A stretch of 64,000 bases of DNA, from contig JABUFD010000002.1 in NCBI GenBank assembly GCA_013314735.1, positions 434,001 through 498,000 on the forward strand, read 5' to 3'. The notes under the pieces were generated by a model that did no database searches, was not told where the DNA came from, and saw nothing but the letters and a program-made list of their open reading frames with translations. The DNA comes from Anaerolineae bacterium (GTDB lineage Bacteria; Chloroflexota; Anaerolineae; Anaerolineales; Anaerolineaceae). Both the position numbers and the translations under genes were made by a program. Below are positions 24,907 to 60,174 of this stretch, piece after piece. Position 1 is the first letter of the stretch. Every line of letters starts with the position of its first letter.

Positions 24907-24910
24907 TCTG

Positions 24911-27133: not shown

Positions 27134-27149
27134 ACAGAGAGGAATTAAT

Positions 27150-27812: not shown

Positions 27813-27816
27813 GTCT

Positions 27817-29691: not shown

Positions 29692-29702
29692 GGAGAATCA
29701 AA

Positions 29703-30575: not shown

Positions 30576-30742
30576 ACAAAGAATACCATGCGGATGAATT
30601 GCTGGCATTGTCTGGGATTCAACACTTCTTTTTCTGCCGCCGCCAATGGGCATTGATCCATGTCGAACAGCAATGGCAGGAGAATGTGTATACGGTCGAA
30701 AGTAAACCGCAGACCGCTCCACGTGTGGGAGCGTGGTTTTAA
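30572..30742 (+). pseudogene. cas4: Truncated cas4 fused into the first CRISPR repeat
   Basis: The start overlaps the cas7c stop (ATGA), as expected for type I-C cas4. The first 43 or so residues (LALSGIQHFFFCRRQWALIH and onward to ENVYTVE) are normal Cas4, with the first iron-sulfur cysteine. The homology then ends. About 13 foreign residues follow and the frame stops at TAA 30740-30742, inside a degenerate CRISPR repeat. The RecB-like nuclease core and the other three cysteines are missing. cas1 and cas2, which should follow, are absent. This is the scar of a deletion that joined cas4 to the array. Confidence 0.9.
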
Positions 30743-31846: not shown

Positions 31847-31990
31847 TGTGGCTGAACAATTTTTACTGGATTTATGATAGTGCACCATACAATTTTCCGT
31901 GCAGGGAGCCCCCGTTCGATCTCTTCAAACTGGTTCATGCTGTGGTTGATTGCCGTAGTCATTTCGTCCATTGGTTTCGGCCTGTGGTTT

Positions 31991-39237: not shown

Positions 39238-40758
39238 TCAGGCTTCTGTTGGTTGAGAAACTGGCATGGCTGCGACCTGTACAGACGATTCCTCTGAGCC
39301 GTACAGCCTGAAGATGACATCATTGATGCCCAGGAATGTGCCGATAACCGGTGTCCAGAAGATCGTCATTACGATTGGGTGAAGTATGGATGCAAGCAAA
39401 ATCGAGAGCCCTACCAGGGTGAAACCGAGGTAGATCGTCTGCATTCGTGGATTGGAAACCGCCCGCCAATTACGAAAACCATTGGTGATAAACGTGATCA
39501 GGAATGTGAGGAAAAAGAACCAGCCGACCAGCCCGGTTTTCATTGCGATCCATAAATGACCGTTATGCGTATAGCCTTGTCCCTGGAATTCGGTGTAATC
39601 GATTCCTTCGATGAATGGGCGATAGTTTGAACCGAGGCCAAGGCCAAATAGAGGATGGTTGGCGATTTGCGGAAGTCCGTAATCATACTCAAAATTTCGC
39701 CAGACGATGGTTGATTCTGTCGTTGACGTATAAGCTTCAGGACTGAACACAGTAGAAATCCGCAGAAGCGATGCGTTAATCAATTGGCCATATTCCGATT
39801 GCGGTGCAATAAATGCCGGGATCAGCACCAGTGGAATAATCCAGCTGAGATAAAGCGCCCAGGTAAGTATCTGTTTGCGGCGTTCGGGTTTTGTCATCAA
39901 GAAGGTTATCAACACAGAAATGGCGGCTACACCCCAATGTGTTCGGTTGAAGCTGATCAGTAAAGCTCCTGCTACAATAACCCATTGCACAAACCGGGCG
40001 ATATTGCGCATCGTAAACTTGGATTGGAACAATTTCACGGTAAGTACAATAAATGAGGTTGTAATCAATCCTTCACCGGGATTGTCCGTAATGCGGGTTA
40101 CATTGGAAAACTGCGGATCTTCTCCTGAGAATGGCTCCACGCGGCCAGAGAGGAAGGTAAAATTCTGCCCCAGTGCATATTGGGCAATATTCGTTAACGA
40201 TGTGATAGTAGCCAGGAGAAACAAACCATTCAATAGTCGGTTTAACTGCTTTTCATCTCTGATGAGGTTAATGAGGATGAAAAACACCATATAGTAAGCG
40301 ATAATTCGAAATTCCTGAACAGCATTTCCCAGGTTCAAACCGCTGCTGCCCTGGATGACACGAATTGTGGTGGAGGTGGCACTCCACAGGAAGAATAACA
40401 GCAGAGGGAGTGTAATTTTGTTAAAACGCAATTCATATTCGGGATCGACAAGCATTCGCACAACCAGAATGATAAACAACCAGATTGTAATCACGTCGGT
40501 GATATAGACCATAAGCGGTCCCACGTCGATCACTGGCATGCTTTCTTCATTGATTACGGTCGATAAGAAAATGATAATCGTCAGAATCCCAAGCTCTGGA
40601 TACCGGATCAAGATTGCCGCTCCCAACAAGCCAAAGACGCCAACCATGACCAGCCTGGGGTCCAAAAAGAGGCAGAACAACCCCAATACCAGACCGCAGA
40701 GCGCAGCAATGCTCATTTGTTGGATGGTCTGATTTTTCCAGTCATACGAAAATTTCAT
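39238..40758 (-). CDS. O-antigen polymerase/ligase-family membrane protein (Wzy-like)
   Basis: The 506-residue protein has about 11-12 hydrophobic helices and a large extracytoplasmic loop near residues 320-400. That loop holds NHPLFGLGLGSNYRPF and YTHNGHLWIAMKTGLVG, the Wzy_C core in which the H of HNG is conserved. It probably polymerises lipid-linked repeat units outside the membrane. It is the last gene of the minus-strand exopolysaccharide operon, after the Wzz/BY-kinase gene. As the likely organism lacks lipopolysaccharide, the product is probably a capsule or exopolysaccharide. Confidence 0.8.
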   Translation of the reverse strand: MKFSYDWKNQTIQQMSIAALCGLVLGLFCLFLDPRLVMVGVFGLLGAAILIRYPELGILTIIIFLSTVINEESMPVIDVGPLMVYITDVITIWLFIILVVRMLVDPEYELRFNKITLPLLLFFLWSATSTTIRVIQGSSGLNLGNAVQEFRIIAYYMVFFILINLIRDEKQLNRLLNGLFLLATITSLTNIAQYALGQNFTFLSGRVEPFSGEDPQFSNVTRITDNPGEGLITTSFIVLTVKLFQSKFTMRNIARFVQWVIVAGALLISFNRTHWGVAAISVLITFLMTKPERRKQILTWALYLSWIIPLVLIPAFIAPQSEYGQLINASLLRISTVFSPEAYTSTTESTIVWRNFEYDYGLPQIANHPLFGLGLGSNYRPFIEGIDYTEFQGQGYTHNGHLWIAMKTGLVGWFFFLTFLITFITNGFRNWRAVSNPRMQTIYLGFTLVGLSILLASILHPIVMTIFWTPVIGTFLGINDVIFRLYGSEESSVQVAAMPVSQPTEA

Positions 40759-40846: not shown

Positions 40847-42127
40847 TTAACTGATTCGAACCTTGCGACTATGGGAGCCAAGATGTGTCCTGTTGGCAAC
40901 GATGCCCAATACATTGGCATCTACCTGCTCCAGATGAGTCAATGTGGCCTGAAGAACTTCTTTTCGGTCCCAACCGAACCGCATAACGAGCAGAACACTG
41001 TCCACTTTGGGGGCCAATACTGCCGGGTCTGTGACAGAGAATGACGAGTGGGCATCAACCAGCACCACGTCATAGTTTTCTTTCAAGGTTTCCAGCAGTC
41101 GAAGCATGTTTTCTGAATCAAGCGCTTCAGGGTTATAAGGCGGTAAACCGCTGGGGAGCAGGTCGACATTGGGATGCATGGTTGTTTGGATGGCGTCGGC
41201 AAGCCTTGAACTGCCATTGAGCAAGTCATTCAAGCCGATTTCATTTTCAACATTGAAGATTTTATGCTGCGAGGGAGATCGCAAATCAGCATCGACGATG
41301 ATCACCTTCCGGCCAGATTGTCCTGCGATGACACCCAAATTGGCAGCAATTGTTGAGCGTCCGTCTTTGGGTACAGGGCTGGTGACAAGAAATGTTTTAT
41401 AAGCCCGGTGATCCTTTGGCGAAAATACGTTGGTACGCAATCGGCGGAATGCCTCTGCCAGGATCGGTTGGTTTACAAGGAGTTCATTTTCATGTTGACT
41501 GGTACCGATATCACCCAGTAATGGCAGGTGGGCTGCCTGCCGCATCTCATTCGGGGTATAGATGCGTGTGTCGAGATTCTCAAAAATGAAGGCCAGGCCA
41601 ATTCCCACAAGCAAAGCCATTGCAAGGCCTAATCCGACAACCAGTAATGGGCTGGCTGAAGAAGGTTCGTCTGGTAATGATGCGGGTTCCACCAGATATA
41701 TGTTGGCGTCACTGCCGTACACTTCGCGGCTCTGCAGGATTAAAATTTCTGCCAGTTTATTGACGGTAAATTGCGCCACATCAGGATCGACATCTTCTGC
41801 GCTGATTGTGAACAACTCCGTTTCAGATATGATTTCCACCGAAATTTTGGGCAGGGGGGTCACATATTCAGCCAATTTGCTTAGAACGGGATCGCTGACA
41901 GCGATTTCTGCATAGGTGCCTACCAGGCGTTTGGCATATTCGATGTCATAATCGACATAATCAGCCCCACCTGTTCGGGCTGTCAATATGCGGATGGTGC
42001 CGGTGGCTGTATACTTGGGCGGAATTTGCGTTACGCCTACAATGATGATGAGCAGTGTGAATACTAGGGTGGCGAAGATGACACCTTTTCTTCTATTTAA
42101 TATATTGAGATAATCAACCAGTTGCAT
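40847..42127 (-). CDS. Wzz-type chain-length protein fused to a degenerate BY-kinase domain
   Basis: The 426-residue protein has an N-terminal Wzz domain (two membrane helices at about 17-35 and 170-190). A C-terminal P-loop domain of the CpsD/CapB tyrosine-kinase type follows. The Walker A motif reads PVPKDGRSTIAANLG; the expected lysine is arginine (codon CGC). Walker A' is intact (VIIVDADLRSPSQHKIF). Walker B reads VVLVDAHSSF instead of IIIDTPP. The usual C-terminal tyrosine cluster is absent. It probably still controls chain length but kinase activity is doubtful. The next gene on the strand is the Wzy-like polymerase. Confidence 0.85.
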   Translation of the reverse strand: MQLVDYLNILNRRKGVIFATLVFTLLIIIVGVTQIPPKYTATGTIRILTARTGGADYVDYDIEYAKRLVGTYAEIAVSDPVLSKLAEYVTPLPKISVEIISETELFTISAEDVDPDVAQFTVNKLAEILILQSREVYGSDANIYLVEPASLPDEPSSASPLLVVGLGLAMALLVGIGLAFIFENLDTRIYTPNEMRQAAHLPLLGDIGTSQHENELLVNQPILAEAFRRLRTNVFSPKDHRAYKTFLVTSPVPKDGRSTIAANLGVIAGQSGRKVIIVDADLRSPSQHKIFNVENEIGLNDLLNGSSRLADAIQTTMHPNVDLLPSGLPPYNPEALDSENMLRLLETLKENYDVVLVDAHSSFSVTDPAVLAPKVDSVLLVMRFGWDRKEVLQATLTHLEQVDANVLGIVANRTHLGSHSRKVRIS

Positions 42128-43256: not shown

Positions 43257-43326
43257 TGCTAACTCCTTGTATAATAATAACAAATAATGTGATTTTTAAG
43301 AAAATTATTTAAGATAACCCATGACC

Positions 43327-44869: not shown

Positions 44870-45571
44870 ATGCATCTGGCACCATCACAGTTGATTGATA
44901 TCAATAAACTGTCAAACCGAGTTCCTCCCCAGAAATTGGCCAAAGCGCGTGCTTATGACCGGCATTGGTCGAAACGTTTTGTTGATTTGTTGATTTCAAT
45001 TCCGGCGTTAATTTTTTTGAGTCCCATTTTTCTGATCACCGCGCTGGCAATCACGTTGGATTCACCCGGCGCTCCGTTTTTTACACAGGAACGGGTTGGC
45101 CGGTATGGAAAAATTTTCAAGATGGTCAAATTCCGTTCTATGCGAACAGATATGGATGACACCCTGCATCAACAACACATTCAGGCTTACGCAAATGGAA
45201 AACTGGATCTGGCGAATGGGAATAAAATAGTAGACGACCCACGGGTGACTACGATGGGACGATTCATTCGAAGGACCAGTATCGATGAGTTGCCGCAACT
45301 TATCAATGTGGTTCTTGGAGATATGAGTATCGTCGGACCGAGACCAGTTCCTGTGTATGAAGCGGATGAATACAATTTATGGCAATCAGAGCGCATGAAC
45401 GCACTTCCGGGTATCACCGGATTATGGCAGGTAACCAGGCGTGGAGTGTCTTCATTTGAAGAGCAGCTTCGGTTGGATATCCGCTATATTCATAACCAGG
45501 ATTTCTGGCTCAACCTGAGGATTATACTGGCAACACCGCGAGCAGTGATTTCCAAAGCTGGGGCAAAGTAA
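44870..45571 (+). CDS. Initiating sugar-1-phosphate transferase (WcaJ/WbaP type, short form)
   Basis: The 233-residue protein has one N-terminal membrane segment (about 40-63, LLISIPALIFLSPIFLITAL) and the bacterial sugar transferase domain. Key motifs are FTQERVGRYGKIFKMVKFRS near 72, RRTSIDELPQLINVVLGD near 142 and SIVGPRPVP near 161. It transfers a sugar phosphate to undecaprenyl phosphate, the first step in building the repeat unit. The short form lacks the large N-terminal membrane region of WbaP. Its stop overlaps the flippase start (TAATG), beginning a tightly packed plus-strand operon. Confidence 0.92.
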   Translation: MHLAPSQLIDINKLSNRVPPQKLAKARAYDRHWSKRFVDLLISIPALIFLSPIFLITALAITLDSPGAPFFTQERVGRYGKIFKMVKFRSMRTDMDDTLHQQHIQAYANGKLDLANGNKIVDDPRVTTMGRFIRRTSIDELPQLINVVLGDMSIVGPRPVPVYEADEYNLWQSERMNALPGITGLWQVTRRGVSSFEEQLRLDIRYIHNQDFWLNLRIILATPRAVISKAGAK

Positions 45572-47070
45572 TGGCAAGAAACGAAGCCAGGAAACCACTG
45601 TTATCAGGGGTTGTCGACGGGGTTCTCTCAACTGGGATCGGTTCTCTGGTATTAACTATTTTTGGCTTGTTGGCTTTTATGTTGACCAGCCGCTGGCTGA
45701 GCCGCGAGGAATTGGGTGCCTTTGTGGTGCTTCAGCTTGTGGTTGGGTTTGTGGTTGGCATCAGTGGGGTGGGAACCGATCTATCGGTAACAAAGTATAT
45801 CGCAGAGAATGAGCACGAAGCATCAAAGCAGAAAATTCTAAATACGGTTGTTACATTCCGCCTTATCAGTATTGTGATCACCAGTCTGTTTGCGATTTTG
45901 TTGCAACGGCCGCTTTTTAATTTATTCGGCGGATCAGTGTATGGCGCCATCATTGGATATATCCCTATCCTTGTTTTGTTGGAGAGCTTTTATCGGCTTA
46001 TCGATTCTGTCCTTGGTGGTTACTTTCGTTTTAATTGGATTGCGTTACTTTCCGGGTTATCCAGCATTTTGAGTTTTATATTCACAATCATCCTCATTCG
46101 ATGGATGGATCTGGGTTTGGATGGAAGAATTTGGGCCCGGATCATCAGTATGGCATTACCTGTGATTCTCGCAATTGTGTTTACACGAATTCAATGGAAG
46201 CTGGAATTGGATTTCAGATTACTCTCTGAAGTAATCCGGTTCTCGTTTCCATTATTCCTGAACTACATTTTAAGCTTTGTTTTTATGCGTGCAGATACTT
46301 TTATCATCGGTGGTTTTCTGGGTGCTGAAGAAATCGCAGTGTATGAGATTGCCCGAAAGATCCCGGAGAGTATCGAGTCGATGTATGATGCTTTCCGGAA
46401 GGTATACTTCCCGTTTATCTCTGATTTATTTGCCAAAAAACGTAATGACCTTGCAGCCGGAATGTTGAACCATTCGTTGAGGTTGATCACGTTTGCCGGT
46501 GTATTCGGAATACTGATCGCCTTCTTTTTTGGGAGGGAGATCATTATTTTCTTGTTTTCGGGCAAATATCAGGATAGCTCTCTGCTGTTTGGATTGTTGA
46601 TGATTGTTCTGACACTGAACGTGATCGACTATACCCTTGGTTACTCGTTGGTGGCGGTGGGTGAGTCGAATAAACCTCCATTGATCAATTTGTTACATAC
46701 CGCAACAAATTTTGTGGGATATTTCCTCTTAATTCCAGTCGTGGGAATATTCGGTGTGGCATATGCCGGGATCGCTGGTATCATCGTCGTCAACCCATTG
46801 AATGTCCACTTTCTGTGGAGGAAGAATGTACTGGCAGAGTATTCTGCCTATTTAAAACCGATGCTCGTGGGAGCAGCATGTTATGGTTTTGCCGAATTCC
46901 TGTTACCTCATCACTGGTTTTTCCGAACCAGTGTGGTATTCCTGTATGTTGTCCTGTGTTTCGTGTTCCAGGTGTTGACTATTGCGGATTTGCAATTACT
47001 GGCGGGGCAGTTACAACGAATCATCAGGAAGAAGTCACTCGCCGTGGAAGAGGAACGTAATCCTGCCTGA
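45571..47070 (+). CDS. Polysaccharide flippase (Wzx-like, MATE/MOP superfamily)
   Basis: The 499-residue protein has 12-14 hydrophobic helices and the features of oligosaccharide-lipid flippases. FGLLAFMLTSRWLSREELGAF lies near residue 27 in part, FSFPLFLNYILSFVFMRAD near 224, and a basic loop at about 280-295. It would move the lipid-linked repeat unit across the membrane for the Wzy-like polymerase encoded at 39238. Its start overlaps the preceding stop, and the next glycosyltransferase gene begins 24 bases on. Confidence 0.88.
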   Translation: MARNEARKPLLSGVVDGVLSTGIGSLVLTIFGLLAFMLTSRWLSREELGAFVVLQLVVGFVVGISGVGTDLSVTKYIAENEHEASKQKILNTVVTFRLISIVITSLFAILLQRPLFNLFGGSVYGAIIGYIPILVLLESFYRLIDSVLGGYFRFNWIALLSGLSSILSFIFTIILIRWMDLGLDGRIWARIISMALPVILAIVFTRIQWKLELDFRLLSEVIRFSFPLFLNYILSFVFMRADTFIIGGFLGAEEIAVYEIARKIPESIESMYDAFRKVYFPFISDLFAKKRNDLAAGMLNHSLRLITFAGVFGILIAFFFGREIIIFLFSGKYQDSSLLFGLLMIVLTLNVIDYTLGYSLVAVGESNKPPLINLLHTATNFVGYFLLIPVVGIFGVAYAGIAGIIVVNPLNVHFLWRKNVLAEYSAYLKPMLVGAACYGFAEFLLPHHWFFRTSVVFLYVVLCFVFQVLTIADLQLLAGQLQRIIRKKSLAVEEERNPA

Positions 47071-47094
47071 CAGCAGGTGGAATGGAGGTCCGGG

Positions 47095-48306
47095 ATGCGT
47101 ATTGTTTATATCGCAAATGTTTTTCCATATCCCCCTGTATCAGGGCACCGCATTCGCAATTATCATCTACTGCGTTATCTCGGTGCGAAGCATGAGTTAA
47201 ATTTGTTCCTGTTGCTGCCCGAGTTTCCTTCCGCGACTGAACTGACGGGCTTGGGTGGGTTCTGCAGCTCAATCCGATGTTATCCCCAGATGCATACAGG
47301 CGCTTTGGACCGACCTGGTTTGGCCATTCGTTATTTGCTGGAAGGTAGGCCCCCGGAATTCAGGAGCTATTATAATGTGGAAATGATGCATGATCTCCAG
47401 GCATTCTTTGATGATCACCAGGTGGACATTGTCCAGATCGAAGATCCATGCATGGCGCAATACATCGAGGCGATTCCTACGGTTAAGCACATAAAAAAAG
47501 TGTTGACCTTCCATGATATTAATTTTCGGAAATTCGACCGAATCAGCAGGCTGGAAACACAGTTAAAACGAAGGCTCCGTTTGAGGCTTCATAGTGCCAT
47601 TCTGCGCCGTTGGGAGCCGCGGTATGCCGGGCGCTTTGACTTGTGTGTGACGATGTCAGACATCGATAAGGACCTGCTCAAGGAAATGAATCCTGCTTTG
47701 CATGTAAAGACAGTCCCGAATGGGGTGGATACAAAAAGCCTGACATTCAACCAAAAAAGTTCATGGGGGAGGGAATTAATCTATGTGGGAAATATGGATT
47801 ACCGCCCAAACATCGATGCTGTTTTGTTTTTTTGTAAGGAGGTCCTGCCATTATTGGTGCAAATGGACGACCGTTTCCATTTTACAATTGTGGGAATCAA
47901 TCCCAGGCAAGAGGTGGTGGACCTCGAGTCTGACCATGTAACGGTGACCGGGATGGTCGCTGATGTTGTTCCATGGTATGCCAAAAGTGATATTTGTGTG
48001 GTTCCACTTCGAGCCGGGGGCGGAACCAGGTTGAAAATTCTAGAAGCGATGGCTTTGGGCTGTCCGGTCGTTTCAACGGCTGTCGGTGCTGAAGGTCTGG
48101 ATCTCGAAGACGGGCGCCACATTTTGATCGCCGATGACCCGTCCTCATTCGTCAGGCAGATATTTGGTTTGCTCCAAAACGAAGAAGTGCGGCAGCGAAT
48201 GATTCTTTCAGCACGGCAACAGGTTGAAAATGTCTATGATTGGGAGATGATCGCCGGCAGCTTGAATAGCCTTTACCAGGAAATGACGGAGAAGACTGAT
48301 GAGTAA
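47095..48306 (+). CDS. Glycosyltransferase, GT4-like
   Basis: The 403-residue cytoplasmic GT-B protein starts MRIVYIANVFPYPPVSGHRI after GGAGG. VPNGVDTKSLTF near 208 marks the second Rossmann domain. VVPLRAGGGTRLKILEAMALG near 303 in part is the E-x7-E-type nucleotide-sugar site. It probably adds one sugar to the lipid-linked repeat unit. Its last eight bases overlap the next gene. The donor sugar is unknown. Confidence 0.88.
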   Translation: MRIVYIANVFPYPPVSGHRIRNYHLLRYLGAKHELNLFLLLPEFPSATELTGLGGFCSSIRCYPQMHTGALDRPGLAIRYLLEGRPPEFRSYYNVEMMHDLQAFFDDHQVDIVQIEDPCMAQYIEAIPTVKHIKKVLTFHDINFRKFDRISRLETQLKRRLRLRLHSAILRRWEPRYAGRFDLCVTMSDIDKDLLKEMNPALHVKTVPNGVDTKSLTFNQKSSWGRELIYVGNMDYRPNIDAVLFFCKEVLPLLVQMDDRFHFTIVGINPRQEVVDLESDHVTVTGMVADVVPWYAKSDICVVPLRAGGGTRLKILEAMALGCPVVSTAVGAEGLDLEDGRHILIADDPSSFVRQIFGLLQNEEVRQRMILSARQQVENVYDWEMIAGSLNSLYQEMTEKTDE

Positions 48307-49510
48307 TGAGAAAACCAACGTTTCTGATGCCAGCTTCCCTCGTCGGATTGTCTGGATATCGGACAGCGATTTGTCCAATACACTGCATGCTTCCACCTGG
48401 CTGGAAACCACGCGCCACCTTCGCCAGATGGGGTGGGAGGTGTGCCTGGTTGCATCCAGTGACCATGAAGAGGGACCAGTAAATCTGAATGGGGTAGACG
48501 TCTTGTTCTTTAAGCGGCCATCCTTGTTCCTTGTGAAGCAGCTGCATTATCATTTCAAAGTGTTCCAATGGTTTTCTAAACGCTTTAAAGATGGCGGTAT
48601 TCTATTGTTTCATGAAATTTCCGGAATCTGGAGCAGGCTATTTCAGCTCTGGGTCAAGTTGTTTGGTAACAAACGGGTGAAATTTGTGATTGATACCCGC
48701 ACGTTACCGATGGAACCTGAAGACGACCTACCGCTGCGGACACGCCTTCGAAGATGGTATTTGCAATTCATTTACCGACATGCAGACCGTTGGTTCGATG
48801 GGCATACCGCCATCACCAGGGCAATGGCTGATTCCCTCAGGATACCTGACAAGCAATTATGGGCAGTGTGGCAGTCAGGTGTATCATTGGAATTGTTCGC
48901 CGACTGCCATGAAAAGAGGGGATTCCCTGTTGGCGATGAACCCATTCGAATGATCTATATTGGCTGCATGCATGTGGAACGAAACCTGTTAACTTTCAGC
49001 CAGGCGATAGTGCAGGCAAACCTTGGCAGCAAAAAATTCCACCTGATCCTGGTAGGCGATGGGAACCAGTACGACGAACTGGTCCAATTTGCTGATGATC
49101 ATCCCGATTGTATCGAAATCCACCCCCCAGTGCCCCAGACGGAAATTCCGGGATGGTTGGCAAATGCGCATATTGGGGTCCTGCCGTTTCCGGATGAGGA
49201 AAAATTCCGCGTTTCCAGTCCCATCAAATTATTTGAATACATGGCTTCTGGTTTGCCAATTTTTGCCACAAGGATCCGCTGCCATACCGATATCATCCAG
49301 AGGCTGCCGTTGGTGTTCTGGGCGGAGGGCAGCACTGTAAATGATTTCGTCGTTGGGTTGCGCCAAATTGAGAAAGAAAAAGACAATTTGCCCGTAATGG
49401 GCGTGGCAGCCCTGTCAGCCGCAAAGAGATTCAGTTGGGAAGCTTCTGCCCGAGAATTGTCTGAGGGACTGCACTTCCATTGGCGATCAGCCGGGAGCGG
49501 TCAGGGATGA
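48299..49510 (+). CDS. Glycosyltransferase, group 1-like
   Basis: The 403-residue protein has a GT-B layout. FDGHTAITRAMADSLRIP lies near 162, IYIGCMHVERNL near 218 and LPFPDEEKFRVSSPIKLFEY near 294 in part. The final ASGLPIFATR resembles the donor-site end of GT4 enzymes. It overlaps the preceding gene by eight bases and the following one by ATGA. It probably builds the exopolysaccharide repeat unit; donor and acceptor are unknown. Confidence 0.82.
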   Translation: MSNEKTNVSDASFPRRIVWISDSDLSNTLHASTWLETTRHLRQMGWEVCLVASSDHEEGPVNLNGVDVLFFKRPSLFLVKQLHYHFKVFQWFSKRFKDGGILLFHEISGIWSRLFQLWVKLFGNKRVKFVIDTRTLPMEPEDDLPLRTRLRRWYLQFIYRHADRWFDGHTAITRAMADSLRIPDKQLWAVWQSGVSLELFADCHEKRGFPVGDEPIRMIYIGCMHVERNLLTFSQAIVQANLGSKKFHLILVGDGNQYDELVQFADDHPDCIEIHPPVPQTEIPGWLANAHIGVLPFPDEEKFRVSSPIKLFEYMASGLPIFATRIRCHTDIIQRLPLVFWAEGSTVNDFVVGLRQIEKEKDNLPVMGVAALSAAKRFSWEASARELSEGLHFHWRSAGSGQG

Positions 49511-50466
49511 ATTCGACAGGTTATTTTGTTTTCTCACTGGATACAGAACTCGCCACCGGGTATTTTGACCATGATCCTGAACGCAGGAGGTTATTCTCAC
49601 AGGATGGTATCCGGGAACGGGAGCGGATTGATCGAATTCTGTCGCTATGTTCACAATACCAGATTCATGGCACCTGGGCGGTGGTTGGCCACTTGTTTTT
49701 TGAGCGTTGTGAATTTTGCGAAATTTGCCCGGTCAGAGCATGGAAAGGGATGTATGCCAGTTATCAGGAAGCCTATGGAACAGCCCATCCGTTGTGGTAC
49801 GGCGCAGATGTCATTCGAAAAATTCAAGCCTGCCCGGTAGATCAGGAAATTGGTTTTCATGGTTATACTCATTCTGTTTTTTCACAAGTGGCGATGACTG
49901 ATGAGCAGGCAGCGGTAGAAATTCAGGAATGGAAACGTCTCGCTCTGCGTTATGGCATTGATGGGAAATCGATTGTCTTTCCACGAGATCAGATTGGCCA
50001 TTTGCGGCAGCTCAGGGAAGCCGGGTTTGATAACTTCCGTGAAGATATCCATCTCCCCTTATTGATTCGGAATCGTTATTTTGGCAGGTATGTGAAAACC
50101 ATCGATCACATTCTGGGAATTACCACAGCGCCATCGTATCCACTGGATCTGAACGAAGAGGAAGGTTTGGTCCGATTTACAACTTCGCAGGAATTGTTTG
50201 CATTCAATCGCGCTGTGGACCGGGTACTGGATAAAATGGGACTTCCTCTTTTACGCATTCAACGTGCAATCCGTGGAGTTCACAGGGCTGCCAAAAGGGG
50301 TAAAATTTTCCATTTGTGGGCGCATCCCTGGGAATTCGAAACCACTGAGGATCTCGCCAAATTGGAAGCCATCTTCCAGGCAGTTGCCGAAGAACGTGAA
50401 CATGGACGAATGGCTTCCAAAACCATGCTCCAGCTATCTCAAATATTGCGGAATGGGCCACAATGA
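49507..50466 (+). CDS. Polysaccharide deacetylase-like protein (NodB fold)
   Basis: ATG 49507 overlaps the previous stop and gives 319 residues. VFSLDTELATGYF near residue 7 supplies the motif 1 aspartate, though the usual second aspartate is glutamate. GTWAVVGHLFFERC near 57 and IGFHGYTHSVFSQ near 117 (HxxxH, metal ligands) fit the NodB fold. HLWAHPWEFE near 275 could be the late histidine motif. It probably trims acetyl groups from a lipid-linked precursor inside the cell; no signal peptide is present. Members of this subgroup also occur in polysaccharide clusters without proven activity. Confidence 0.75.
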   Translation: MNSTGYFVFSLDTELATGYFDHDPERRRLFSQDGIRERERIDRILSLCSQYQIHGTWAVVGHLFFERCEFCEICPVRAWKGMYASYQEAYGTAHPLWYGADVIRKIQACPVDQEIGFHGYTHSVFSQVAMTDEQAAVEIQEWKRLALRYGIDGKSIVFPRDQIGHLRQLREAGFDNFREDIHLPLLIRNRYFGRYVKTIDHILGITTAPSYPLDLNEEEGLVRFTTSQELFAFNRAVDRVLDKMGLPLLRIQRAIRGVHRAAKRGKIFHLWAHPWEFETTEDLAKLEAIFQAVAEEREHGRMASKTMLQLSQILRNGPQ

Positions 50467-51452
50467 CAGAAGAATTTTCGAAACCGATGCGGGTTTTATT
50501 AGTGTCCAACGTGTATCCTGTCGACGAACGCAGCGGAACGCCTTCCATAGGCATTCAACAGCACATCTTGGAAAGTTTTGGCGTCGAATTCGAGGTGATC
50601 TCAATCTCGACCGGCAGCAAATGGGCATATATCAGGAATGTAATCCGATTCCTCCTGATGAATTTGAGACCTCCCCGCTATGACCTGATTCATGCTTATT
50701 ATGGATTAAGCATATATATTGCCACACTTCAGAAGAAAATTCCGGTGGTGGGAACATTCCTGGGTTCCGATTTAATCAATCGAACGGGGGCGTCTGACCG
50801 GGATCGACAGGTAGGTTTGCGGGCAGCCAAAAAGGCAGACGCTGTAATTGTCATGTCTCCCGAGATGAAGGCCGAAAGTGGACGTGAAGACAGCTATGTG
50901 ATTCCTTTTGGAGCGAACCTGGCGGAATTCGAATTGTTAAATAAAGAAACTGCCCGGCACCGACTCAATTTGCCAAACGGGAAAAAGTACATTTTATTTC
51001 CCTGGAATCCTTCCCGCAAAGTGAAACGGTTTGATCTTATTGAGGAAGCCTGCCAAATCCTTCAGCGTCGCCTGCCTGATGTGGAACTGGTTGTAATTCA
51101 CGATCTGCCGCAATCTGAGGTGGTGCTTTACATGAACGCCTGTGATGTCCTGGTTCTGGCTTCGGACCATGAAGGCAGCCCGGTTGCCGTTCGTGAGGCA
51201 ATGGCTTGCAACCTGCCGGTCGTCAGCACGGATGTCGGGGATGTACGTGAAGTGCTTGCCGGGGTGAGTCAGGCTGTGATAGTTGAGCAGTCGCCTGTGG
51301 CGATTGCTGAGGGTTTGTACCGTGTATTATCAGATTCTGCCAGGTCTGATGGACGGGCGAAGATGGAGCAATATGATATGATGACTGCATCCTGCCAGGT
51401 GCTCGATGTATACCACTGTGTTGTAGAATCGAGAAGACGGAGTGTCGATTGA
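50463..51452 (+). CDS. Glycosyltransferase, GT4-like
   Basis: The 329-residue GT-B enzyme starts with an ATGA overlap. MRVLLVSNVYPVDERSGTPS near residue 9, GTFLGSDLINR near 97, IPFGANLAEFE near 151 and LVLASDHEGSPVAVREAMAC near 227 in part give the standard donor-site signature (E..E with GSPV). It is a little shorter than most GT4 proteins (about 370). It is part of the exopolysaccharide operon; the sugar specificity is unknown. Confidence 0.88.
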   Translation: MTEEFSKPMRVLLVSNVYPVDERSGTPSIGIQQHILESFGVEFEVISISTGSKWAYIRNVIRFLLMNLRPPRYDLIHAYYGLSIYIATLQKKIPVVGTFLGSDLINRTGASDRDRQVGLRAAKKADAVIVMSPEMKAESGREDSYVIPFGANLAEFELLNKETARHRLNLPNGKKYILFPWNPSRKVKRFDLIEEACQILQRRLPDVELVVIHDLPQSEVVLYMNACDVLVLASDHEGSPVAVREAMACNLPVVSTDVGDVREVLAGVSQAVIVEQSPVAIAEGLYRVLSDSARSDGRAKMEQYDMMTASCQVLDVYHCVVESRRRSVD

Positions 51453-52636
51453 TGAAAATTTGCATGGTGGTCCATCAGAATTATTTTCAAGATGAGCGGG
51501 TGCGCCGTTACGCTATAGCATTGCTGGATCATGGACACAATGTTGATGTCATCTGCCCGGCTCATCCATCGCATAAAGACAATAGGAAATCATTACCGGT
51601 CATTGTTCGGACGATTCCCATCAAACATCAAAGTGGATCTGGTGCATTGGCATTGCTGTTTGAATATGTTGTATCCTTTGTGTTTTACTTTTTAATGGTT
51701 ACCATTCACCATTTGAAGTACCAATACGATGTGATCCATGTCCACAACATGCCAGATTTTCTTGTTTTCACAACCCTTATAGCACGGTTGACGGGTGCGA
51801 AAGTAATTCTCGACATACATGACCCGATGCCAGAGTTCTACCAATCAAAATTCAAAAGTAAGGAAAATTCACTCCCCATTCGACTGATTCGATATCAGGA
51901 GAAGTTTGCTACTGGTTTCGCACATCGAGTCATCGCCGCCAATGATAACTTCCGCACAAATTTGATTACGAGGGGTGTTGCGAGTGAAAAAATTATTACG
52001 GTCAGGAATTTTCCAGACCGTACGATATATAATCGGGAAATCTATCCTGTCAAAGATGACCAGGATAAATATGTGTTAATCTATCCCGGAACGATTGCTC
52101 CCCGATATGGACTGGATGTTGCCATTCACGGGCTTGAGATATTGAAGGATGAGTTGCCCCAGGTGAGGTTGTGGATCATCGGATCAGAAACAGAACATAA
52201 GCAGGAGTTGCGGAAACTCGCCAGTGATTTGGGGGTGGAAGAAAGGATACAATTTTCTCCTGTTGTTCCCAGCGACCAGGTGGCAGCGTTGATTGCCAGG
52301 GCTGATGCAGGGATATACCCCGCCCTGCCAGACGCACATATGGATATTGCAATTCCGACAAAAGTTCTGGAGTTTACGGCAATGGGCCTGGTTGTGATTG
52401 CCAGTGACCTGACTGTCATCCGACAACTCTTGTCGGATGAGTTGGCCTATCTATTTCCGGCGGGAGATCCTGTTGGATTCGCCCGGCAGGTCAGGAAGGC
52501 CGTACTCGATGAAGCGGACCGGAATGAAAAATTACGGCATATCCGAGAAGCGGTCCTCCCATTTTGGGATTGGGCAATAGAGCAACGAAAGTATATAGAC
52601 TTGCTGCAGGCGGTACAACGTCCTGTAAAACCATAG
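51452..52636 (+). CDS. Glycosyltransferase, GT4-like
   Basis: The ATG at 51452 shares a base with the previous stop (TGATG) and gives 394 residues; a TTG three bases earlier is also possible. MKICMVVHQNYFQDERVRRY opens the acceptor domain. VIHVHNMPDFLVF lies near 93, LIYPGTIAPRYGLDVAI near 210 and IPTKVLEFTAMGLVVIASD near 305. A hydrophobic segment at about 68-88 suggests membrane association, as in GumH/WcaC-type enzymes. It is the last glycosyltransferase of the operon. Confidence 0.88.
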   Translation: MKICMVVHQNYFQDERVRRYAIALLDHGHNVDVICPAHPSHKDNRKSLPVIVRTIPIKHQSGSGALALLFEYVVSFVFYFLMVTIHHLKYQYDVIHVHNMPDFLVFTTLIARLTGAKVILDIHDPMPEFYQSKFKSKENSLPIRLIRYQEKFATGFAHRVIAANDNFRTNLITRGVASEKIITVRNFPDRTIYNREIYPVKDDQDKYVLIYPGTIAPRYGLDVAIHGLEILKDELPQVRLWIIGSETEHKQELRKLASDLGVEERIQFSPVVPSDQVAALIARADAGIYPALPDAHMDIAIPTKVLEFTAMGLVVIASDLTVIRQLLSDELAYLFPAGDPVGFARQVRKAVLDEADRNEKLRHIREAVLPFWDWAIEQRKYIDLLQAVQRPVKP

Positions 52637-52651
52637 CTCAGGAGAATTCAA

Positions 52652-53251
52652 ATGGCAGATTTTTTTGTACATTCCACCGCGATTGTGGATAGTGAACAGA
52701 TTGGCGCAGGAACCCGAATTTGGGCTTTTTCGCATGTGTTGAAAGGCGCTGTAATCGGCGAACAGTGTAATATCGGCGATCATTGTTTTATCGAGGGGGG
52801 TGCAATCATTGGCAGCCGTGTAACGATGAAGAACAGCAATATGGTTTGGGAAGGGGTAACGATTGCGGATGGTGCTTTCATCGGGCCGCATGTGTTCTTC
52901 ACCAATGATCTCTATCCCCGTTCTCCCCGTCTGCAAGAAGCAGCCCATCGTTATGAGAATCATGGATGGTTGTCAGAAACCCATATTGGTTATGGCGCTT
53001 CATTGGGTGCGGCAGCGGTGATCCTCGCGGGAATTACAGTTGGCGAATTTGCAACGATAGGCGCAGGGGCGGTGATCAGCAAAGACGTGGCAGCACATGC
53101 ATTGATGGTGGGAAATCCTGCCCGTCAGATCGGATGGGTGTGCCGTTGCGGTCTGCGGCTGGATATCCGACAGGATCAAAATGCCAAATGTCACTGCGGC
53201 GACGAATACGGCCTGGCAGAAGAAGGCCTACACCGGATATCGGCCAAATAA
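52652..53251 (+). CDS. Sugar-nucleotide N-acetyltransferase (WbpD/WlbB-like, left-handed beta-helix)
   Basis: The 199-residue protein is built of hexapeptide repeats (IGAGTRIWAFSHVLKGAVIG, from residue 13, onward). FFTNDLYPRS near 77 and the GYGASLGAAAVILAGITVG coil near 113 match WbpD, which acetylates the 3-amino group of UDP-2-acetamido-3-amino-glucuronate. A short C-terminal cysteine-rich tail (CRCGLRLDI ... CHCGDE) could bind zinc. It completes the route begun by the dehydrogenase and aminotransferase of the divergent operon. AGGAG precedes the ATG. Confidence 0.88.
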   Translation: MADFFVHSTAIVDSEQIGAGTRIWAFSHVLKGAVIGEQCNIGDHCFIEGGAIIGSRVTMKNSNMVWEGVTIADGAFIGPHVFFTNDLYPRSPRLQEAAHRYENHGWLSETHIGYGASLGAAAVILAGITVGEFATIGAGAVISKDVAAHALMVGNPARQIGWVCRCGLRLDIRQDQNAKCHCGDEYGLAEEGLHRISAK

Positions 53252-55810: not shown

Positions 55811-56572
55811 TCATTGATGGCTTAATTGTTCAAACAACTCTTCAAATGAATGACCATCTTTCGGGAAAGCGTTGAGGGTGTATTGAAAACCTAAATGATC
55901 CTGCACTGCAGCCACCCTGGTTAAGCGGTTGAGCATCTTTTCGGCTTCCTTTGTTTCAATATTGGGGCAGATGACCAGGAAATCGTTGATGCCATCCATT
56001 CGTACCAGGATATCGGTGACACGTAAATTGGTTGCGAGAAATCGCATCATCTTGTGATCCAACTGGTTCAGTGTTTGTGTTGATTGATCTGCCAAATGAT
56101 CCTGGCGTCCTTCAAGCCGGATTAATACAATTGGAAAATTGTACCGAAATGCCCGTGCGAACTCCGCCTCGATGATGGTTTGGATTTGCCGGTAATGGTA
56201 TACGCCATTTTCGTTATCTGTTTCGATCAATTCGTTGGTACGGGAGAGTTGCGCAAAGAAAACACCGCCGGTAACAGCAGAAATGGTGGTGAGAATGCAT
56301 CCCCAGGCTGCCGCAACCAGGTAGTGAGTTACCGAAAAATTTCCCAGGTTCGCTAAAGCATAGATTGCGAAAACACACAGGGTGAAGCCGATCGAGACGG
56401 CGATGCCGCCTTTCTTCAGTGCGTTGAATGCCAAAACAAAGACGGTCGTGGCCAGGAGAAGTAATCTAAGTCCGGCGGCAAGACCGATGGGAAAGAACTG
56501 CTCATTCACGGCGATCATTGTTCCAGCCAGGAGTACCAATAATGTGATTACCAGGATCAATAATTTTTTCAT
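55811..56572 (-). CDS. Membrane protein with a degenerate GGDEF domain
   Basis: The 253-residue protein has about four membrane helices in the first 110 residues and a cytoplasmic GGDEF-like domain after about 125. The active-site motif is DGINDF instead of GGDEF, so diguanylate cyclase activity is unlikely. An RVTD sits where the inhibitory I-site (RxxD) binds c-di-GMP, and the DxxxR spacing (DILVR) is kept. ATG 56572 follows AAGGATAGG. It lies 123 bases upstream of the BcsB-like gene on the same strand, so it may be a c-di-GMP receptor that controls polysaccharide export. Confidence 0.65.
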   Translation of the reverse strand: MKKLLILVITLLVLLAGTMIAVNEQFFPIGLAAGLRLLLLATTVFVLAFNALKKGGIAVSIGFTLCVFAIYALANLGNFSVTHYLVAAAWGCILTTISAVTGGVFFAQLSRTNELIETDNENGVYHYRQIQTIIEAEFARAFRYNFPIVLIRLEGRQDHLADQSTQTLNQLDHKMMRFLATNLRVTDILVRMDGINDFLVICPNIETKEAEKMLNRLTRVAAVQDHLGFQYTLNAFPKDGHSFEELFEQLSHQ

Positions 56573-56616
56573 CAAGCCTATCCTTCAATGCAATGGAACA
56601 TGTTACCGGTAAGATA

Positions 56617-56648
56617 AGAAAGGACTACTCACAACCTGAGTCCTTTCT
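56617..56648 (-). terminator. Probable terminator of the lacI-GH94 operon
   Basis: A perfect 10-bp stem (AGAAAGGACT at 56617-56626 with AGTCCTTTCT at 56639-56648) lies 36 bases after the GH94 stop. On the minus strand it runs into TATCTTACC, only moderately T-rich. Confidence 0.55.
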
Positions 56649-56684
56649 CATTATACGAAAATGCCGATGAAATTACCAGAAACG

Positions 56685-59093
56685 TTATGGGTTGGCAGGT
56701 ACGGTCACAGTTACCTGGTATTCTCCTGCGGGATAAGCTGGTATGGTTGTTCCCGGGATCTGCGTGCCATTGATGTTAATTGCGAGATCACGGTCGGGAT
56801 CAGTGGTTTGGATTGTAATATGGTAGATTGCTTTCCGGAACTTGCGGTGGATCGTCACCTGATGCCAATGATTCGGTAGACAAGGGGTGATCTTCAGGCC
56901 GTCAAATGTGGGTTGGACACCGAGAATGAATTGAGTGGCAGCTAGATACATCCACGCGGAAGTACCAGAGAGCCAGGAATTGCGAGCCAGCCCGAACTGT
57001 GGGTGTTCATCACTTAAAATATTCTGCGCGTAGACATAAGGTTCGCACTCATAACACTCAATCAAATCATTTTTTAAAGCTGGATTGGTTTGGGCATGGT
57101 ATTGATATGCCTGGCCTCCGTTACCATTCAATGCTTCCGCAATGATAACCCACGGGTTTACATGCATAAATATGCCGCAGTTTTCTTTTGCGCCAGGAGG
57201 ATAGGTCGTAACACCGCCTTTGGCTGGATCATACCCATTAAATGAAGGTGTGGATAATTTGATGCCATGGGTTGTGTTCAACTGATCTCTGACTGCCGCC
57301 AGGGCGGTTGTCGCCCGGTCCCTATCAGCAAATCCGGCCATAATCGCCATCGCCTGGCCATATGCGAAAATTTGGCCATTATCACTGGATTTTGATCCGT
57401 AGATTGCGCCAGAGACATCAAAATAACTGCGGTACCAACCGCCATCCCATGCATGGCGGTTGAAGTTGTCTTTAACATCGTGGTATGCTTTTTCCCAAAA
57501 CGTGTAAGCTTCTTGATTATGCTCATATTTGGCAAGGGCAGTCAATTCTTTCAGCGCCATCCCAAGTAAGCAGGTACTCAGACAGGATTCAGAACCTGGC
57601 ATCAGGTTGAATGTATCGTTCCAATCTGCAAAACCAAGGCGGCACAATCCATGTGCGCCCACATCTTGCAGGCTGAAATTAACTGCGCGGTGTAAATGGT
57701 CACGGACAGGGGCAGATTCCAATGGGTTTCCTGCCTTCGTTTTCTCATAAAAGGGCAGCATCTCATCGAGGAAATCGAAATCACCGCTTTCCTTGATGTA
57801 TGCCAATACTGCCAACACCAGCCACAGGTGATCATCACTGTAGTATTGCAGCCGTTCGGGGTCTTCTGTTGCGTCACCCATGCTGGCCTCCATCGTTAAT
57901 GGGTACAGCTGGTGCATGGCATATCCGCTGCGGGTCTGAATGCTGATCAGTTTCCGCAGGAGTTTGACTGCCTGGTCTGGAATGGTGTGCAACACAGCCA
58001 GGATATCCTGGGAGCTGTCACGGGTACCCAAACCACGGGAACCGAGTCCCAATTGGTACAGCGAAAGATAACGAGACCAGTTGAAGGTGATGTAGGATTG
58101 GTGAGGGTTGTGGATATTGATGAGTGAGTCGAAAGCCGAATCCGGTGTCTGTACCTGGAGTTTCACCAGGTAGTTGCTCCAAAAATGCTGCAACTCCTCA
58201 AATGCTGCAGCGACATGTTTCTCTTCCATGTAATAAGGGATTGATGCTGTGGTGTGAACATTATCGGTTTGGCCCAGCTGAGTGATCAGCGTTTGGCTTT
58301 CGCCAGGCGCAAGGGATCTGAAAGGATAAACAATGGCGGCGATGTTATCTCCTCGGCGTGCTTCATGATTGCTTAATGAGGATTGCTGCAATGAAAGCGG
58401 GTTAGACCAACTGCCATATTCATTGTTTCCCAGAAAAATTTTCCGATCTGTTTCAAACGAGTCTGCTGGCCGATTGCCTGTGAAGTAATTGGAACGTGTA
58501 TCTCTGTGCATAAAAGCAAATTGTCGCAGAATCAGCGTTTTCGCCAGGTACACGGCTTCGCTTTGCATGGTTTGTGGCACCCAGTCAGCGTTGGTGAATT
58601 GTTTTAGAGCATCAAAATGCGAATACTCCACAACAGGAATCACATCAAATGAGACGGTTGATTCTGATCTATTCCGAAACCTGTACCAGCGAATTTCACA
58701 GGCGCTGCCTGGTGGGACAAAAATGGTGATATCACATTCCAGTCCATTGATCACTGAGTAGATGCGTGTGTATCCCAGCCCGACATGGCACTCCCATGCA
58801 TCCAATGCGGTGGCACAAGGGACATGAAAGGGTGAAACCACCTGGAAGCTGCCATCAGGGAGTGGGAAACGTAGATATGCGGTCTCACCTTTGAAATCAG
58901 ATGCCGGCATTTGGGGGATGTATTTTGTGATCCGATTCAACGCCGGATCGCCTTTACAGATCAAAGCGCCACCAGTGTGGTCTACAAATCCACCGAAATC
59001 GAGGGTGCCGATGTAATTAATCCATTTAACGGGTGTGAAGAGGTTCGTGATCACATATTCTTTTTTTTCATCATCAAATCTGCCGTATTGCAT
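56685..59093 (-). CDS. GH94-family disaccharide phosphorylase (cellobiose phosphorylase-like)
   Basis: GH94 enzymes split a beta-linked disaccharide with phosphate, giving a sugar-1-phosphate and a free sugar. The 802-residue protein opens with MQYGRFDDEKKEYVITNLFT, then WINYIG and NRITKYIPQM, as in cellobiose phosphorylases. The catalytic aspartate is in GFADWNDTFN near residue 480; GLGSRGLGTRDSSQD near 350 is the substrate-site loop. ATG 59093 follows GAGGT and lies two bases after the lacI stop, so the two are coupled. The CelR/CebR-type operator upstream supports a cello-oligosaccharide substrate, but other GH94 activities (laminaribiose, chitobiose) are possible. Confidence 0.88.
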   Translation of the reverse strand: MQYGRFDDEKKEYVITNLFTPVKWINYIGTLDFGGFVDHTGGALICKGDPALNRITKYIPQMPASDFKGETAYLRFPLPDGSFQVVSPFHVPCATALDAWECHVGLGYTRIYSVINGLECDITIFVPPGSACEIRWYRFRNRSESTVSFDVIPVVEYSHFDALKQFTNADWVPQTMQSEAVYLAKTLILRQFAFMHRDTRSNYFTGNRPADSFETDRKIFLGNNEYGSWSNPLSLQQSSLSNHEARRGDNIAAIVYPFRSLAPGESQTLITQLGQTDNVHTTASIPYYMEEKHVAAAFEELQHFWSNYLVKLQVQTPDSAFDSLINIHNPHQSYITFNWSRYLSLYQLGLGSRGLGTRDSSQDILAVLHTIPDQAVKLLRKLISIQTRSGYAMHQLYPLTMEASMGDATEDPERLQYYSDDHLWLVLAVLAYIKESGDFDFLDEMLPFYEKTKAGNPLESAPVRDHLHRAVNFSLQDVGAHGLCRLGFADWNDTFNLMPGSESCLSTCLLGMALKELTALAKYEHNQEAYTFWEKAYHDVKDNFNRHAWDGGWYRSYFDVSGAIYGSKSSDNGQIFAYGQAMAIMAGFADRDRATTALAAVRDQLNTTHGIKLSTPSFNGYDPAKGGVTTYPPGAKENCGIFMHVNPWVIIAEALNGNGGQAYQYHAQTNPALKNDLIECYECEPYVYAQNILSDEHPQFGLARNSWLSGTSAWMYLAATQFILGVQPTFDGLKITPCLPNHWHQVTIHRKFRKAIYHITIQTTDPDRDLAININGTQIPGTTIPAYPAGEYQVTVTVPANP

Positions 59094-59095
59094 GA

Positions 59096-60130
59096 TTACC
59101 TCAAGGTGATTGATCCAGCCAGGGCACTTGATCCGCATGATTGGCGCACAACCAGTTCGGGGTTTAAAATAATCCTCTGCGAATCCGTATCAGGATAATT
59201 GATCTTGTTTATCAGGATTTCGGCTGCCAGATTTCCCATTTTCCGGATGGGCTGACGCATTGTAGTCAGAGACGGTGTCATCTGGTCCGCTGAGGGTATG
59301 TCATCAAAGCCAACGATTGCGATATCATCAGGAACACGGATTCCAACCTCCTTCAAGGCGCGATATGCCCCGTGCGCCATGTTATCTGAAGCGATGAAAA
59401 CAGCATCCGGCTTTTCGGGTAACAATTGAAACATGCCAAAATATCCACTGCCTTCGGTATAATCACCTTTGGCGATCAAAGCATGGTTGACAGTTAACCC
59501 CCAATCCTGCAAGGCTTTCTGGTATCCTTCGATGCGGTTGATGCCTGATTGCATGCCTTCCGAACCGGTGATGGTGGCGATTCGCTTTCTCCCTGTTTTC
59601 AGAAGGTGCTGTGTCGCAGCATAAGCGCCTTGCACATTATCGCAATCCACAACACTGGCATCGGGCAGGGCAGGCTGACGCCCGACGAGTACAAAGGGGC
59701 GGGGAGTGGATTTTAGGGCCTCGATGATCGGATCGCCCATTAGCATTGAGGCGATGATGAAGCCATCCACCAGGCCGTTATTGAGAAATTTGTTGATGGA
59801 TTTCCGTTCCAGGTCGGGGTCTGATAACCACAACATGACGGAAAAATCCTGCTCATTACTGGTCTGGCTTACACCCAACGACAGGAATTGAAAATAAGGA
59901 TCGTTAAAAATGAAACTGACGGTTTCCGGGATGATCAGGCCGATATTATTCATTTGCCCGGCAGCCAGGCCACGGGCAGCCTGGTTGGGGTGGTAATTCA
60001 GTTGTTCGACCACGTCAGTTATTTTCTGGCGCGCCCGATGGCTGACGCCGGGTTCGCCATTAATAACACGAGAGACCGTTGACCTTGAATATCCGCTGAC
60101 TTCAGCGATATCCTCCAGGGTTACAGGCAT
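59096..60130 (-). CDS. LacI-family transcriptional regulator (CelR/CebR-like)
   Basis: The 344-residue repressor has an N-terminal helix-turn-helix and hinge (VTLEDIAEVSGYSRSTVSRV near residue 3, AARGLAAG near 52). A periplasmic-binding-protein-like sugar domain follows (about 60-344; VGFDDIPSADQMTPSLTT near 281). ATG 60130 follows AGGAGAG. The operator TGGGAGCGCTCCCA in its own promoter is identical to that known for CelR/CebR of cellulolytic actinomycetes, so it probably senses cellobiose or a related sugar. It is followed after two bases by the GH94 gene. Confidence 0.92.
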   Translation of the reverse strand: MPVTLEDIAEVSGYSRSTVSRVINGEPGVSHRARQKITDVVEQLNYHPNQAARGLAAGQMNNIGLIIPETVSFIFNDPYFQFLSLGVSQTSNEQDFSVMLWLSDPDLERKSINKFLNNGLVDGFIIASMLMGDPIIEALKSTPRPFVLVGRQPALPDASVVDCDNVQGAYAATQHLLKTGRKRIATITGSEGMQSGINRIEGYQKALQDWGLTVNHALIAKGDYTEGSGYFGMFQLLPEKPDAVFIASDNMAHGAYRALKEVGIRVPDDIAIVGFDDIPSADQMTPSLTTMRQPIRKMGNLAAEILINKINYPDTDSQRIILNPELVVRQSCGSSALAGSITLR

Positions 60131-60174
60131 ATTCTCTCCTATTACAAGCTTCATTCGATGATTGAGTATGAGGA

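Follow-up and report, generated by a model that had tools for sequence, protein, structure and literature searches.

The window, as the whole stretch of 64,000 nucleotides analysed here is called, carries a minus-strand gene for a membrane protein with a degenerate GGDEF domain, a BcsB-like gene downstream of it, and, on both strands, a gene cluster for exopolysaccharide assembly (Table 1). The reading frame of the first gene runs from an ATG at 56572 to a stop at 55811 and encodes 253 amino acids (aa). One codon before this ATG lies a TTG, which was the choice of the ORF lister and gives a 254-aa version; residue numbers below are those of the TTG version and are lowered by 1 for the ATG start. 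The protein is referred to as the receptor, after the function proposed for it.

The earlier note on this DNA had placed the gene beside an exopolysaccharide cluster, and this was borne out. The cluster is a Wzx/Wzy locus, in which genes for an initiating phosphoglycosyltransferase (PGT), Wzx, Wzy and a Wzz/kinase-like protein are found together, accompanied by glycosyltransferase-like and amino-sugar genes. The Wzz part was sub-threshold in Pfam (23.0 bits, cut-off 25.5) and the autokinase model scored above its own cut-off. Among the glycosyltransferase-like genes, those at 47077 and 50463 were below the NCBIfam cut-offs and the one at 48299-49510 gave no NCBIfam match. The PGT and Wzy genes lie about 10 and 15 kb from the receptor gene, respectively, and share no operon with it.

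Just upstream of the receptor, genes for a LacI-type regulator and a GH94 glycoside phosphorylase were found (window 56685-60154). A terminator-like hairpin, which was not called by the terminator scan, lies between the GH94 and receptor genes and would separate their transcription units. Among the annotated loci of relatives there was only one partial GH94 match beside a receptor. Since the GH94 and LacI genes otherwise went unrecognised beside the receptors of relatives and the hairpin lies in between, they were left out of the system. An Rfam scan of the window returned no c-di-GMP riboswitch or other RNA at the gathering threshold. Further away (24869-31854), the window contains type I-C CRISPR interference genes (Cas3, Cas8c, and Cas7) with an 18-copy repeat array, and an ORF at 27108-27812 occupies the Cas5 position of this set.

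Table 1. Features of the receptor gene and its surroundings, in window coordinates.
Feature	Position	Strand	Basis
Wzy-type polymerase (Wzy_C)	39238..40758	-	profile match
Wzz/tyrosine autokinase-like chain-length protein	40847..42127	-	profile matches
DegT-type aminotransferase	42147-43283	-	below curated cut-off
UDP-GlcNAc 3-dehydrogenase-like oxidoreductase	43327-44367	-	below curated cut-off
Small initiating PGT (Bac_transf, 233 aa)	44870..45571	+	profile match
Wzx-type flippase	45571..47070	+	profile matches
Glycosyltransferase-like genes	47077-49510, 50463-52636	+	Pfam for 51449-52636
328-aa protein without NCBIfam match	49480-50466	+	
Hexapeptide acetyltransferase, convergent with bcsB	52652-53251	+	Pfam
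BcsB-like protein, 789 aa	53318..55687	-	PF03170; predicted fold
Degenerate-GGDEF membrane protein, proposed c-di-GMP I-site receptor	55811..56572	-	ORF, alignment, model
GGDEF-fold cytoplasmic domain, residues ~122-254	55814..56212	-	model, Foldseek/VIA-align
Codon of R217	55925..55927	-	aligned with PleD R390
DGINDF in place of GG(D/E)EF	55979..55996	-	sequence, PleD alignment
RVTD (R185, D188), primary I-site RxxD	56012..56023	-	aligned with PleD R359/D362
Codon of R141	56153..56155	-	aligned with PleD R313
Predicted four-helix membrane part	56261..56572	-	AlphaFold helices, hydropathy
Terminator-like hairpin between GH94 and receptor genes	56600..56665	-	-19.3 kcal/mol, z -3.1

Fold and I-site of the receptor

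The receptor is only a sub-threshold match to Pfam GGDEF (16.3 bits, cut-off 23.8), and a sub-threshold match to Pfam DUF2177 was found as well. Its AlphaFold2 model, built from 57 aligned sequences, has a mean pLDDT of 80.4 and contains four helices (residues 2-22, 30-49, 58-77, and 84-119) that coincide with four peaks of hydropathy and are followed by a GGDEF fold. The 50 matches listed by Foldseek and the 50 listed by VIA-align were all GGDEF proteins, with VIA-align Z values of 14-17 among those listed; the matches confined to the domain superpose at about 2-3 Å over some 130 residues. The degenerate GGDEF reading frame reported in the earlier note is thus present on the minus strand, and its model has the GGDEF fold. 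Pfam gave no GAF match up to E=1, and the model has only helix between the fourth transmembrane (TM) helix and the GGDEF domain. PelD was absent from the PDB sequence matches and from the Foldseek and VIA-align matches listed, an absence which excludes nothing. The receptor is among the most divergent members of its family, with an end branch of 2.7 and 15-21% identity to relatives over whole alignments.

The I-site was examined in an alignment of 51 family members with a PleD fragment identical to the PDB sequence. The RVTD motif, which had been suggested to hold the position of the c-di-GMP-binding RxxD, aligns with PleD R359 and D362. R141 corresponds to PleD R313, which we take to be the secondary I-site arginine, and R217 to R390, presumably the third I-site residue. 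All four positions (R141, R185, D188, and R217) are therefore present in the receptor.

The active site has fared differently. Compared with GGEEF of PleD, GINDF of the receptor has the same first glycine and phenylalanine and an aspartate for the second glutamate, whereas the second glycine is changed to isoleucine and the first glutamate to asparagine. At PleD D327, N335, and D344 the receptor has E, S, and a gap, so that the degeneracy noted earlier in DGINDF extends to these residues. An active diguanylate cyclase with an unusual active site was considered, as some GGDEF variants with altered motifs, such as AGDEF, are described as active (PMC3974145, in the portion available), and GINDF, which keeps the first glycine, an acidic residue and the phenylalanine, is nearer to the motif than the sequences of many relatives. 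With asparagine at the first glutamate, the three further residues changed, and D327, N335, and D344 kept in only 3, 1, and 3 of the 51 relatives, such activity is extremely improbable.

Loss of the catalytic residues was found throughout the family. None of the 51 members has an intact GG(D/E)EF; G368 is kept in 2 and G369 in 7, and an acidic residue (D or E) stands at E370 in 12 and at E371 in 3. Conversely, R141 is present in 46, R185 in 49, D188 in 46, and R217 in 45, with a complete RxxD in 44/51 and all four I-site positions in 34/51. The homologues were found with search profiles and alignments whose source members for the most part have the motif, which is a caveat on this retention. 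A second set of homologues came from the genome_contigs collection, in which two peptide patterns, both without RxxD, were used as queries. This gave 76 loci, of which 74 have a family ORF (L191 and L199 have none and enter no count) and 73 were counted at a threshold of at least 90 bits, which leaves out L258 (69 bits). RxxD is kept in 73/73, and in 60/60 representatives that are less than 80% identical, while GG(D/E)EF is found in 0/73. The R141 position is arginine in 72/73, the R217 position in 71/73, and all four I-site positions are present in 70/73.

In the genome of the window, RxxD was found in 15 of the 16 GGDEF domains with an intact motif and in two of the five others. Because RxxD is frequent even in ordinary cyclases, it is its retention after the loss of catalysis, rather than its presence, that is informative. 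Conservation of RxxD in homologues, which the earlier note had named as a check of its proposal, was thus found, and the pattern supports, from sequence, a probable c-di-GMP receptor derived from a dead cyclase. The same note had pointed to a retained DxxxR; this holds for the window protein (D188 and R192) but not for the family, where the arginine is present in only 11/51 and 40/73.

The BcsB-like neighbour and the search for a synthase

The BcsB-like gene starts 123 bp after the receptor stop on the same strand. Its product scores 121 bits against PF03170, has a hydrophobic N-terminus and a hydrophobic C-terminal helix, and in its model (pLDDT 62, low confidence) has E. coli BcsB as top Foldseek match (E 3e-34), in agreement with the earlier assignment of a BcsB-like neighbour. 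It is the single BcsB locus found in the genome, which is 95.5% complete. The resemblance to the BcsA-BcsB cellulose synthase ends with this homologue, by profile and predicted fold: no BcsA-like synthase or GT2-PilZ protein was found in the genome at this completeness, and PilZ occurs in one ORF of 115 aa away from the locus. An earlier hint at cellulose was therefore dropped, as no BcsA-like synthase was found and the locus is of the Wzx/Wzy type.

Matches to the GT2 family PF13632 were sought as well. There is none in the window, and on its contig more than 100 kb separates the locus from the nearest one. The genome has six, of which one contains both QxxRW and TED; this best candidate is an XrtG-exosortase-associated GT2 (TIGR03111, 365 bits) encoded beside an exosortase, with 41 bits against the cellulose-synthase model (cut-off 699). 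At the corresponding site (G000 C9, L060:6662-8730), the XrtG-like exosortase and GT2 genes are near a gene for an 836-aa protein without NCBIfam match.

The link between receptor and BcsB was counted for members drawn from 147 genomes of the bacterial family and 400 genomes from across its phylum. Among the 59 members scoring at least 110 bits, which include six near-copies from one genus, 37 share a contig with a PF03170 BcsB no more than 20 kb away, and in 18 the distance is at most 1.5 kb. Linkage within 20 kb falls to 5/10 in members of 90-110 bits and 3/28 below 90 bits. Some of the 22 unlinked members are on short or cut contigs, are in genomes without a BcsB match, or have BcsB far away (G311, G257, and G037). 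The count omits part of the second BcsB fragments where another piece of the gene was already included, as well as the weak BcsB matches in G234, G235 (C117), G350, and G417. On the strength of this linkage and the retention of RxxD in homologues, the observation is considered to go beyond chance.

Genomic contexts of the relatives

Up to 20 kb of surroundings was annotated around the relatives from the same 147 and 400 genomes. Class labels were assigned with our own profiles and BLAST of window and relative proteins, and a part was checked with Pfam and NCBIfam. Three contexts were recognised.

In class I a small PGT gene comes immediately after the receptor gene, and the pair heads an exopolysaccharide cluster. 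A PGT directly follows the receptor in 72 of the 74 loci of the pattern-scan set, which is weighted to the PGT context by its query (eleven rows, ten of them class I) and nearly all of which is labelled Chloroflexota. The exceptions are L204, with the PGT further downstream, and the weak L258. The PGT gene overlaps the receptor stop in 25 of the 63 class I pairs checked, with longest-ORF starts. Class I occurs in Leptolinea, Longilinea, Levilinea, Herpetosiphon, and a Chloroflexus MAG. Receptor and small PGT together resemble, in two pieces, the layout of WbaP, whose N-terminal domain after a four-helix bundle is described as responding to UMP/UDP (PMC10942596, in the text available). By this analogy the domain might bind another nucleotide or a nucleotide sugar, like the nucleotide-sensing DUF of large PGTs. 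Such a ligand is quite improbable, as conservation falls specifically on the residues that make up the c-di-GMP I-site and the fold is that of GGDEF.

Class II consists of seven loci, including the window, in which the receptor is beside BcsB and, in all seven, bcsB is convergent to a hexapeptide acetyltransferase gene. In four of them (L046, L056, L144, and L146) the genes are arranged Wzz-Wzy-receptor-BcsB on one strand, and in L144 and L146 the Wzy gene shares four bases with the receptor gene. The window locus looks like a rearranged version of this order.

In the nine loci of class III, BcsB and receptor adjoin a GT2 synthase of about 1310 aa. The four synthases scanned (L043, L045, L052, and L151) have 4-5 N-terminal MshEN stretches, and the RxxD register is lost in the alignment in five of the nine receptors. 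MshEN domains are known c-di-GMP binders (PMC12002112, as far as the text was available), so a relaxed constraint on the I-site would make sense in class III, where the synthases scanned have MshEN of their own. Since a GT2 synthase accompanies receptor and BcsB in class III, the window proteins could likewise serve a processive GT2 synthase encoded elsewhere, in the manner of PssE and YdaK, with the Wzx/Wzy genes as mere neighbours; the one genomic GT2 with QxxRW and TED would be the candidate. Its association with an XrtG exosortase, its low cellulose-synthase score, and the finding that Wzy rather than a GT2 adjoins the receptor in four of the seven class II loci make this arrangement rather unlikely.

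A few members, namely L042 and L153, fit none of the three contexts. The latter (G000 C9, L153:9522-10466) is a second, weaker family member in the genome of the window (117.7 bits, RGTD kept), near which neither BcsB nor PGT was recognised.

A tree was built from 46 of the 51 rows, with two of the six near-identical Herpetosiphon-like rows among them, and 15 of the 74 pattern-scan rows, which carry the class I label without one-by-one check. Class III forms one group (support 100), and the window groups with the six loci of the same gene context, class II (support 86); the branches of the window and of L040, both of them long, join each other in the tree.

Four genomes (G381, G737, G809, and G642, the last two of one genus) encode receptor and PGT in one open frame of 599-613 aa, at loci L131, L260, L261, and L263, respectively. 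They come from a search of 346 class genomes for matches to the G381 protein at E <= 1e-60, which is no full census. A fifth candidate, G690, was rejected; its alignment spans both parts, but these are two separate ORFs. The fusions are the strongest hint of physical association between receptor and PGT. At the I-site arginine all four have tyrosine, and at the third arginine three of the four have glutamine, substitutions which, read from sequence, are evidence against the fusions being classical c-di-GMP sensors. Taken with the five class III members without the RxxD register, this indicates that not every family member would be a classical I-site receptor. The same two groups could be explained by a GGDEF remnant that senses no c-di-GMP and instead gives the polysaccharide complex structure or a means of dimerisation. 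This explanation is unlikely for the family at large, since elsewhere the I-site is near-invariant (60/60 of the divergent representatives), which a scaffold would not need.

Known systems and a proposed mechanism

YdaN is a BcsB-like protein, and the Pel operon is not known to contain a BcsB gene. Among the closest described counterparts of the receptor-BcsB pair is the pssA-E system of Listeria monocytogenes, where c-di-GMP binding by PssE has been measured (Kd 0.79 uM, with two ligands on each protein); PssE is needed for exopolysaccharide and is encoded in an operon with the BcsB orthologue PssD (PMC4125290). Compared by description only, and with the portion of that paper available, the receptor is like PssE in its degenerate GGDEF, an RxxD five residues before the motif, and a BcsB gene in the locus. 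Unlike the window locus, which is of the Wzx/Wzy type and in which no PF13632 GT2 was found, the PssE operon has the type 2 glycosyltransferase PssC. YdaK of Bacillus subtilis (ydaJKLMN) is described as a protein of 283 aa with four TM helices, a degenerate GGDEF and a functional I-site, whose response to c-di-GMP is lost in the I-site mutant R202A (PMC7064775). By the same kind of descriptive comparison, from partial text, the receptor shares the four TM helices (predicted here), the degenerate GGDEF and the I-site, whereas YdaK belongs to a different phylum and works with the putative synthase components YdaM and YdaN. As there is no GT2 synthase gene in the same operon, the window receptor is filed as a variant of the PssE/YdaK type.

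PelD of Pseudomonas also has four TM helices and a degenerate GGDEF, which binds dimeric c-di-GMP via RxxD and a third arginine; the counterpart of R217 is R402 (PMC8461298, in the text available). In contrast to the window receptor, in which none was seen, PelD has a GAF domain between the TM and GGDEF parts. For post-translational control at the initiating PGT, an example is Myxococcus xanthus, where EpsW activates the PGT EpsZ of a Wzx/Wzy pathway (PMC12802240). There a dedicated partner protein controls the pathway at initiation; EpsW differs, in the excerpts of the source, as a phosphorylated single-domain response regulator rather than a c-di-GMP receptor, and EpsZ as a large PGT.

These comparisons are joined by the computed results: the fold, the missing catalytic residues, an I-site that relatives keep, and the proximity of BcsB genes and of Wzy or PGT genes. 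On this basis the window protein is probably a PssE/YdaK-like c-di-GMP receptor made from a dead cyclase and co-opted for Wzx/Wzy exopolysaccharide assembly. R141, R185, D188, and R217 would take up a c-di-GMP dimer, the GGDEF domain would shift to another conformation, and the long helix that follows TM4 would relay this change to partners in the membrane by direct contact. With c-di-GMP bound, the receptor would license its partner, so that the direction of control would be activation. In class I the partner would be the initiating PGT. In the window the most likely partners are the BcsB-like protein and the Wzx/Wzy proteins encoded beside it, and c-di-GMP would therefore switch on polymer assembly or export post-translationally.

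A broader proposal, possible but held tentatively, is that Wzx/Wzy assembly in Chloroflexota is under direct c-di-GMP control, with the receptor placed on the committed step. In one form this step would be the PGT, and the receptor, as a separate protein or fused, would take the place of the regulatory half that large PGTs possess. In the group of the window it would instead be Wzy, for which BcsB would act as exporter or guide. Receptors of this type, also paired with BcsB, are already known; what seems new is the placement on Wzx/Wzy machinery, next to PGT or Wzy, across the phylum. A literature search of open-licence PMC papers found direct c-di-GMP control described only for synthase-dependent polymers, and no description of a c-di-GMP receptor acting on a PGT or Wzy. 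HfsK of the Caulobacter holdfast is, in the available part of its description, a c-di-GMP-binding acetyltransferase and not a PGT or Wzy regulator (PMC5362036). If true, the proposal would give c-di-GMP an input into a type of pathway other than the synthase-dependent ones, and a 2025 paper calls the post-translational control of Wzx/Wzy pathways incompletely understood (PMC12802240, in the part available). Chloroflexota are abundant in wastewater bioreactors, with a suggested role in structuring flocs and granules (PMC9942424, from the text available). Where the receptor directly precedes a PGT, a c-di-GMP switch on the pathway could be tested with small, expressible proteins.

Genes of c-di-GMP turnover were sought next to the receptors in counts that include many incomplete loci. 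As a general rule an adjoining cyclase was rejected, with a canonical GGDEF gene within 6 kb in only 3/51 and 2/73 loci, and so was an adjoining phosphodiesterase, with an HD-GYP-like gene within 6 kb in 9/51 and 8/73. An HD-GYP gene directly upstream of the receptor on the same strand was found in L048, L050, L054, L208, L219, and L243. In the first three of these, an active-type cyclase, HD-GYP (in pieces in L050), receptor and PGT form a probable operon, which would set the maker, breaker, sensor and target of c-di-GMP side by side.
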